A DNA stretch of 64,000 nt, taken from positions 1,472,612 through 1,536,611 of the forward strand of contig NC_015320.1 of the NCBI RefSeq assembly GCF_000194625.1. The letters run 5' to 3'. Positions 26,273 to 43,778 of the stretch are shown here, in pieces. The DNA is from Archaeoglobus veneficus SNP6. Its GTDB lineage: Archaea > Halobacteriota > Archaeoglobi > Archaeoglobales > Archaeoglobaceae. Made by a program: the position numbers and the translations under genes. How positions within the stretch are numbered: the stretch's first letter is position 1; every line of letters starts with the position of its first letter. The notes under the pieces were generated by a model. The model was not told the DNA's origin, did no database searches, and saw only the letters and a program-made list of their open reading frames with translations.

Positions 26273-26287
26273 CAGTACATCAACAAC
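26273..26287 (+). repeat. Left 15-base target duplication of the IS element
   Basis: CAGTACATCAACAAC abuts the left inverted repeat and is repeated exactly at 27254-27268. Preceding CA is also shared, so the identity extends to 17 bases if the terminal bases are counted differently. Confidence 0.88.
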
Positions 26288-27253
26288 TGTGGTATCCCGA
26301 AATAATTTCACTCCTCAATCAACCACCTCCCGCTAAACTCAAACACCCTTTCAGCGGGCAACTTTCTCAGAAACGCCTGATAAGGAATCTCCAGTTCATC
26401 AAAATTCAGGCTCATGTGAGGCTTCACGTAATTATACCAGTAAACAAACTCATCCAGCGATTCAAAAAGACCAATTTTCTGCTCCATCAAACCAAAGAAC
26501 CTCTCTATCTTTCCATTGGTTTGAGGGTGGTTTACCCTCGCCAGAATGTGCCTTATTCCATTCTCCTTCAAGAATTCTTTAAACTTGTGCCTAGCCTTCT
26601 CTCTGCTTTTTGCAGCAACAAATTGGGTTCCGTGATCAGTAAGAATCTCATCTGGAATGCCATATTCAGCGAATCCCTTTCTCAGAACTCTGATTGTGTT
26701 CTCAGTTGTAGCGGAATCAAAAACACCGTAGCAGGTTATGAAGCGAGAAGCATCATCCATAAAGGCTATTATCCACTTCTCTCCAAGCATTTTCCAGTCT
26801 CCCTGCCATAAGGACATGGAGTGTTTTCTCTCGTATCTAACCCATTTCCTCCTCTTCTTCTTGTTCATGTTCTCCTCCACCAAACCGTGTTTGAGTAAAA
26901 CTTTGTATATGGTGTTGTGCGGAATGTGAATTCCATAATCTCTTTCTATCAGCTTTTCCAGTGGAACTGGGCTGAGTCTGTATTTGTTGTAGGTTTGCAG
27001 GATTATTTGTTCTATCTCTTTGTCTATCTGTTTGGGTTTTCTTCCCGATTGTCTCAGTTCTGGAATTTCTCCTGTTTCCTCGTATTGTTTTTTAATCTGG
27101 TAGATTCTTCTTGGTGTTACTCTCATCACAGCAGCTATTTCCTTCACTGGAGTTCCTCTGTCAAGTTGTCTGATTATCCACCTGATCTTTTTGTTCGTTA
27201 GTTTTCTCACAAGAGTTGGGTTTAGGGTTGTGAAATAATTTTGGGATACTACA
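26288..27253 (-). mobile_element. IS481-family insertion sequence, complete
   Basis: The 966-base element is bounded by imperfect 24-base inverted repeats (26288-26311 and 27230-27253; 21 of 24 positions match; both begin TGT and end ATTTCAC) and flanked by an exact 15-base direct repeat. It holds one transposase gene with an intact DDE triad. Intact ends, intact gene and perfect target duplication point to a recent and possibly still active insertion. It lies between pyrC and the H/ACA-like RNA. Confidence 0.9.
26308..27210 (-). CDS. IS481-family DDE transposase
   Basis: An N-terminal helix-turn-helix (GTPVKEIAAVMRVTPRRIYQ) is followed by a linker and an rve catalytic core with D in WQGDWKM, D in LTDHGTQF and E in TNGKIERFFG (about residues 138, 192, 236). 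The frame is open out to a TTG at 27267 and an ATG at 27261, but both lie in the flanking target duplication outside the element; GTG at 27210 is the first start inside it and gives 300 residues. The stop codon lies in the left inverted repeat. Confidence 0.9.
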   Translation of the reverse strand: MRKLTNKKIRWIIRQLDRGTPVKEIAAVMRVTPRRIYQIKKQYEETGEIPELRQSGRKPKQIDKEIEQIILQTYNKYRLSPVPLEKLIERDYGIHIPHNTIYKVLLKHGLVEENMNKKKRRKWVRYERKHSMSLWQGDWKMLGEKWIIAFMDDASRFITCYGVFDSATTENTIRVLRKGFAEYGIPDEILTDHGTQFVAAKSREKARHKFKEFLKENGIRHILARVNHPQTNGKIERFFGLMEQKIGLFESLDEFVYWYNYVKPHMSLNFDELEIPYQAFLRKLPAERVFEFSGRWLIEE

Positions 27254-27268
27254 CAGTACATCAACAAC
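27254..27268 (+). repeat. Right 15-base target duplication of the IS element
   Basis: Exact copy of 26273-26287, immediately outside the right inverted repeat. It ends about ten bases before the presumed promoter of the H/ACA-like RNA. Confidence 0.88.
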
Positions 27269-27273
27269 CAATA

Positions 27274-27286
27274 AAGCTAAAATACT
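27274..27286 (+). promoter_or_regulatory. TATA-like box before the H/ACA-like RNA
   Basis: GCTAAAATACTTC lies about 25 bases before the basal stem that begins at 27305. It is outside the insertion element and its target duplication, so the insertion spared it by a few bases. Confidence 0.4.
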
Positions 27287-27304: not shown

Positions 27305-27366
27305 TTGCTCCGCTCCCACGCCCGGGTGATGAAGCATGATCCCGGGTCGGTTAGCGGAGCAACAAT
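27305..27366 (+). ncRNA. Candidate archaeal H/ACA box guide RNA
   Basis: A 9-10 bp basal stem pairs 27305-27314 (TTGCTCCGCT) with 27353-27362 (AGCGGAGCAA) and is followed at once by ACA at 27362-27364. An internal loop (CCCACG at 27315-27320; TCGGTT at 27347-27352) forms the pocket. A 6 bp upper stem CCCGGG/CCCGGG (27321-27326, 27341-27346) is capped by a kink-loop, GTGATGA at 27326-27332 with ATGA at 27336-27339, the L7Ae-type box C/D-like motif. The distance from the upper stem to ACA is 15 bases, inside the 14-16 window known for these guides. The expected target has the form 5'-AACCGA-U-N-CGUGGG-3', allowing partial pairing. Open frames over it are not coding. The target was not identified. 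Confidence 0.8.
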
Positions 27367-27382
27367 CTTCAATAGCTTCAGC

Positions 27383-27400
27383 AAATATTTAATATATATC
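27383..27400 (+). promoter_or_regulatory. TATA region of the Yip1-like gene
   Basis: AATATTTAATATATATC lies 20-35 bases before the ATG at 27419, which has no ribosome binding site. The gene is therefore probably leaderless, transcribed separately from the RNA just upstream. Confidence 0.5.
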
Positions 27401-27418
27401 TGCAACACATTATTTTGT

Positions 27419-28054
27419 ATGCTTGATTTGCTTTTCAATCCTGACGAGTTCTTCAGAGTGGAAAAGGAGCAGAAGTTCTGGAGGGGTTTCGCAATCGTAC
27501 TGATTTCGGCAATTTTAGCATCGATAAACGGATATCTGATCGCGGAACCTATTTCAGAGTCAATCTACGAACAAATGGTGGAAAAAGTGCCAGCAGAGCA
27601 GGCAAGGATTGTTGCAGATACCACATATGTTGCATCCATAATCTCGCCAGCAGTAGGAGTGTTCATAATGTGGAGTGTTATAGCGGCAATTTTCCACGGA
27701 ATCACTGCAATTTTTGATGGAAAAGGTGAGTTTAAGAGCACGCTGAAGCTGACAGCCTACAGTTTCGTTCCCTCGATAGCCCTTTTCCCGGCGAACTTCT
27801 ACATTACTCTCGAAAACGCAAGACTCGTAGAGCAGTATGGCCTGGAGGCTTTAAAGAGCAGCGATATGGTGCTTGCATCCACCCTGCTCGGGCTCGCAGC
27901 CCTTATGTGGCAGTTCACCCTGTGGAGATTCGGGATAATGCACGCAAGGAATCTGGACAGAAGAAGTGCAACCATAGTTGCTGCTCTTCCAGCGCTGGCA
28001 CTGGCAGCTATAAGCGTCAATTCACTGCTCAATCTTCGCTCGCTGACTCCCTGA
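27419..28054 (+). CDS. Yip1-domain integral membrane protein
   Basis: The 211-residue product opens with MLDLLFNPDEFFRVEKE, the typical start of archaeal Yip1/YIPF proteins, and has about five hydrophobic segments including GFAIVLISAILASINGYLI, SPAVGVFIMWSVIAAIFH and STLLGLAALMWQFTLW. Function in archaea is unknown. The frame is open upstream to 27305, but that portion is the H/ACA-like RNA. Its last 26 bases overlap the convergent PhoU-like gene. Confidence 0.75.
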   Translation: MLDLLFNPDEFFRVEKEQKFWRGFAIVLISAILASINGYLIAEPISESIYEQMVEKVPAEQARIVADTTYVASIISPAVGVFIMWSVIAAIFHGITAIFDGKGEFKSTLKLTAYSFVPSIALFPANFYITLENARLVEQYGLEALKSSDMVLASTLLGLAALMWQFTLWRFGIMHARNLDRRSATIVAALPALALAAISVNSLLNLRSLTP

Positions 28055-43427: not shown

Positions 43428-43778
43428 ATGCCCGAGTTAGAGGTAAAAGGAAAGAAGCTGACGCTTGATGAAGACGGATTTTTGCAGGACTGGGAAGAAT
43501 GGGACGAGGAAGTTGCTGAAGCTATTGCAAAAGACACGAGATTCAGCCCCCAGCCGATTGAACTGACCGAAGACCACTGGGTAATTATCAAATACCTGAG
43601 AGACTACTTCCTGAAGTATGGTGTTGCTCCGCCAATAAGAATGGTCGTTAAGCACATGAAGAAGGAGCTTGGCAAGGAGAAGGGTACTCTCGAGTACCTG
43701 TATCAGCTGTTCCCTCAGGGTCCTGCTAAGGACGCCTGTAGAATTGCTGGTCTGCCCAAGCCAACAGGATGTGTCTAA
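43428..43778 (+). CDS. dsrC: DsrC, trisulfide carrier protein
   Basis: The 116-residue protein matches DsrC/TusE: MPELEVKGKKLTLDEDGFLQDWEEWDEEVAEAIA in parts, RDYFLKYGVAPPIRMVVKHM, and the C-terminal arm DACRIAGLPKPTGCV with Cys 104 and Cys 115 (C-x10-C), the two Cys that form the trisulfide with sulfite-derived sulfur. It takes product from DsrAB (not in this window) and is recycled by DsrK. GAGGTG precedes the ATG. It is divergent from dsrO. Confidence 0.96.
   Translation: MPELEVKGKKLTLDEDGFLQDWEEWDEEVAEAIAKDTRFSPQPIELTEDHWVIIKYLRDYFLKYGVAPPIRMVVKHMKKELGKEKGTLEYLYQLFPQGPAKDACRIAGLPKPTGCV

Follow-up and report, generated by a model that had tools for sequence, protein, structure and literature searches.

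Pab91, the single-hairpin guide RNA of Pyrococcus and Thermococcus (Rfam RF02795), has been reported to modify U2690 of T. kodakarensis and U2685 of P. abyssi in the peptidyl-transferase centre, and Afu-46 (Af46) of Archaeoglobus fulgidus has L2639 of 23S rRNA as its target. In the productive fold of archaeal H/ACA RNAs, the GA stem is built of 10 stacked layers and terminates in sheared G-A pairs, the lower stem has about 9 bp, and 14-15 nt lie between the GA stem and the ANA box; on the target side, the 5' duplex contains no mismatch and at most one wobble, and positions n-1 and n+2 form Watson-Crick pairs (PMC4652768). We analysed a 64,000-nucleotide stretch of the A. veneficus SNP6 genome (the window), in which a first-pass annotation had proposed an H/ACA guide RNA at 27305-27366 (+) (G000:C1:1499916-1499977). 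This proposal is upheld by homology to the Pab91 family, by covariation, by the exact geometry of the fold and by the conservation of its rRNA target. We are highly confident that the locus encodes an archaeal box H/ACA guide RNA with a single hairpin, one that belongs to the Pab91/Afu-46 orthologous group and targets 23S U2660 (Rfam-start numbering). The RNA is not unprecedented, as its kin in Pyrococcus and A. fulgidus have already been characterised; it is a real, conserved and expected member of the family.

The RNA folds into one stable hairpin of -34.6 kcal/mol, compared with -20.2 +/- 3.4 kcal/mol for shuffled sequences (z -4.19; 0/200 shuffles as good). Its basal stem, pocket, upper stem, kink-loop and ACA, all on the + strand, lie where the annotation had placed them. 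The lower stem P1 pairs UGCUCCGCU (27306-27314) with AGCGGAGCA (27353-27361) over 9 bp; 27305 and 27362 could add a tenth pair, at the cost of the first A of the ACA. Between the stems lie the 5' guide CCCAC (27315-27319) and the 3' guide CGGUU (27348-27352). The two strands of the GA stem, GCCCGGGUGA (27320-27329) and GAUCCCGGGU (27338-27347), form seven standard pairs (27320-27326/27341-27347) closed by G27320-U27347, followed by the U.U, G.A and A.G layers of the kink-loop, giving the 10 layers of the published rule (PMC4652768). The apical loop, UGAAGCAU (27330-27337), together with the UGA on either side of it, is a predicted L7Ae binding site. The 3HAX chimera presumably carries this GA stem. 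From the GA stem, CGGUU and a further 9 nt lead to the ACA box (27362-27364). This spacing had been given as 15 bases and has to be corrected to 14 nt once G27320-U27347 is counted, following the 10-bp GA-stem rule; the lower stem and the spacing then agree with the productive fold, and the RNA fits its '10/5/9' form, subfamily 55, exactly (PMC4652768).

Searching the window with Rfam at the gathering threshold returned no match. Below it, the Pab91 model RF02795 matched the RNA over its full length, with stem, pocket and ACA in exact register (30.5 bits, E 8e-4 in a 501-nt search). As this score does not reach the 71 bits of the RF02795 gathering threshold, the RNA is filed here in the Pab91/Afu-46 ortholog group and not as a called Rfam member; RF02795 matches were found in 29 of 59 genomes of the class Archaeoglobi, all of them under that threshold. 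We also used a covariance model, R1, made from 22 relatives with the window's own sequence left out. R1 scored the window copy at 76.5 bits, its sole strong match in the genome, and revealed orthologs in 48 of the 59 class genomes (E <= 1e-3), with one strong copy each; BLAST relatives were present in 14 of 40 genomes. When R1 was run on a 295-genome sample of the phylum, all matches among those listed fell within the Archaeoglobi. In a reverse test, R1 found the Thermococcus Pab91 at E 9e-10, the same RNA that Rfam calls at 77.9 bits, so that profile homology between Pab91 and the Archaeoglobi RNA holds both ways. The Pab91/Afu-46 guide now extends over the Archaeoglobi, including genomes missed at the Rfam cut-off.

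In the alignment of the 22 relatives, 98% of cells were paired and two-sided changes occurred in 7 of 16 pairs (4 of the 9 in P1), with both P1 and the GA stem showing compensation. The covariation score was 0.315, compared with 0.189 +/- 0.015 for shuffles, none of 500 of which reached this value, and sliding the structure along the alignment dropped the paired fraction to 29-51%. Invariant in these relatives were the UGA/UGA of the kink-loop, the CAC of the 5' guide, the CGGU of the 3' guide and the ACA, while the full CGGUU occurred in all distinct orthologs except two. Related genomes thus show both the compensating stem changes and the fixed ACA on which the annotation had staked its proposal.

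The annotation had also predicted from the pocket a target of the form AACCGA-U-N-CGUGGG. Leaving the closing G-U pair open had shifted this register by one base on both sides, and the 5' guide had been taken too literally; in that register, no site in rRNA passes the pairing rules. In the corrected register, a scan of 16S and 23S rRNA for the two-part target did succeed, the guides pairing with GACCG-U-C-GUGAG around 23S U2660. Upstream of the target U, GACCG is bound by the 3' guide with a single U-G wobble; downstream of it, GUG.G is bound by the 5' guide through three contiguous pairs, an A-C mismatch at n+5 and one further pair. The site conforms to the 5'-duplex rule and to the n-1/n+2 rule (PMC4652768). 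Of the five 16S and 23S sites that pass these rules, all have at most one contiguous 3' pair except U2660. Pairing energies were ranked by using the rRNA of the window genome for every ortholog guide. On this basis, U2660 ranked first among 659 uridines for 30 of 43 ortholog loci (UCAC-type guides) and between 2 and 6 for CCAC-type guides, being second for the A. veneficus RNA. It was also the best site on average over distinct guides, and 1 of 500 shuffled guides reached the energy of the best ortholog. U2660 corresponds to E. coli U2593, nine bases ahead of A2602, and the target region hardly differs among those class genomes in which it was recovered. Judged from sequence, the most likely target of the guide is U2660, which lies close to A2602 in the peptidyl-transferase centre, in the region of helix 93. 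An assignment to Hvo1-L2621 was rejected, the E. coli position being U2593.

The same U stands at about 2689 in Thermococcus 23S rRNA and is the only long match there for a Pab91-type guide; this site was read from relatives in the genus, the Pab91-bearing genome being without its 23S. In G040, which we take to be the A. fulgidus genome, numbering the U2660 equivalent as 2639 is the only choice among 47 U sites that leaves the reported positions 1364, 1970, 2601 and 2878 all U. By predicted pairing, the A. veneficus RNA therefore addresses the target uridine of the Pab91/Afu-46 group. Sharing its site with Pab91 (U2685) and, by numbering, with Afu-46 (L2639), it is an ortholog of Pab91, and very probably of Afu-46 as well. 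It resembles Pab91 in its single hairpin, pocket layout, 9-bp P1, 14 nt to the ACA, kink-loop and 23S target U. By contrast, its stem sequences differ, and its 5' guide has 5 nt with one mismatch where Pab91 has 6 paired nt. As for Afu-46, the likeness lies in the target U by numbering; an A. fulgidus-type ortholog, L045, shares the fold and the 3' guide, whereas its 5' guide, CCTCAC, is free of the A-C mismatch found in A. veneficus. Judging by its target, L045 is probably Afu-46 itself. Thermococcus and Archaeoglobus relatives thus have in common, usually as one strong copy, the guide for a pseudouridine of the peptidyl-transferase centre.

Being GC-rich, intergenic and next to an insertion sequence, the hairpin might instead be a conserved structure of another kind, either an intrinsic terminator or a transposon-associated palindrome. 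However, no U-run follows it, relatives carry it without the insertion sequence and beside different genes, and the stems show compensated changes around a conserved pocket, kink-loop and ACA. It might also be coding, as a reading frame (27305-28054, TTG start) that extends the Yip1 gene is open through the hairpin. Yet the Yip1 domain is wholly covered from the ATG at 27419, and the orthologs, mostly in other surroundings, differ by single-base indels while their stem changes are compensatory. The earlier view that no protein frame explains the palindromes is thus confirmed, indels and stem covariation ruling out a coding role. Conservation of the pocket and ACA disposes of the terminator or transposon palindrome in the same way, and we regard both readings as already refuted, the probability left to each being negligible.

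Another possibility retains the H/ACA guide but has its main target moved in A. veneficus and the relatives sharing its mismatch (to 23S U351, 16S U1464 or an mRNA, for example), the old site being weakly modified or not at all. The 5' guide is 5 nt long in A. veneficus and 6 or 7 nt in orthologs, and the A-C mismatch at n+5 occurs in all CCAC-type guides (A. veneficus, its relative G002, and genera g2, which is probably Geoglobus, g8 in part, g13 and g16), with the rRNA target region unchanged. Moreover, the raw energy of the A. veneficus guide is -14.3 kcal/mol at U351 versus -13.0 kcal/mol at U2660. Against such a move, the pairing with U351 is broken by a mismatch at n+3 and the 3' guide shows no variation in its CGGU, and the best alternative site varies by guide within the CCAC group while U2660 is always among the top six. 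We consider a moved target highly improbable. In the search of 59 genomes, R1 found no ortholog in six genomes of genus g4 (G005, G016 and G046-G049, one of them complete), nor in G001, G004, G066, G024 and G025. The 23S target region of g4 and G001, where recovered, is nearly unchanged despite the lack of a detectable guide, and loss of the guide in g4 is possible. It is improbable, in our estimate, that A. veneficus and its CCAC-type relatives (including g2) have a guide weakened at the ancestral site, partly retargeted and serving a second RNA, with g4 having lost the guide and either having lost the pseudouridine or making it otherwise. The guides of 5-7 nt, the A-C mismatch and the apparent loss in g4 offer natural test material for the pairing needs of Cbf5.

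As a guide for U2660, the RNA would be transcribed, probably from its own promoter, at a length of about 60-75 nt. L7Ae would bind the kink-loop, and Cbf5, for which a gene is present in the genome, would bind P1 and the ACA together with Nop10 and Gar1. The pocket strands CCCAC (5') and CGGUU (3') would then present U2660 by pairing with GACCG-U-C-GUGAG, for isomerisation by Cbf5 (at E. coli U2593; Thermococcus about 2689; P. abyssi 2685; A. fulgidus 2639). Transcription, protein binding and U2660 modification in A. veneficus are all predictions from sequence. A TATA-like element, TAAAATA (27278-27284, +), 22-28 nt upstream of the hairpin, is the putative promoter; the A/T fraction at -28 to -22 is 0.82-0.97 across 33 distinct orthologs, and TTAAAATACTTCGAGTGCAAC is found likewise in the same-genus relative L002.

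The fresh insertion element noted beside the RNA proved to be a 966-bp insertion sequence (26288-27253, -), outside the RNA, with an rve transposase ORF (26308-27267, -) and ends of the form TGT(G/A)GTATCCC. It is flanked on both sides by a 15-bp target-site duplication, CAGTACATCAACAAC (left copy 26273-26287, right copy 27254-27268). Three full-length copies, the other two at G000:C1:1129810-1130779 and 1419321-1420286, show a rounded 100% identity and each has a perfect 15-bp duplication, indicating that the insertion is recent; the genome further contains one full-length copy that has diverged (82%), along with partial copies that have diverged too. A gap of 9 bp separates the end of the right duplication from the TATA-like box, so the promoter of the RNA seems undamaged by the insertion. 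The relative G002 keeps the order pyrC, RNA, Yip1 gene and phoU-like gene without the insertion, and pyrC adjoins the RNA in g2 genomes; within 1.5 kb on each side of the RNA, the pyrC link was not seen elsewhere.

Elsewhere in the window, R1 gave a weak match at 43620-43670 (-) (11.5 bits, E 1.5; GCUCC...GGAGCAACA), which is probably due to chance. The same genome holds a second H/ACA-like hairpin some 9 kb ahead of the window, at G000:C1:1463480-1463540 (-) (L125:1501-1561, -), which matches none of the Rfam H/ACA families. It scores 29.7 bits with R1 and has a fold z of -4.5, and its guides, GAACCG and GGCUU, form 6+5 pairs at 16S U909 (E. coli 950).
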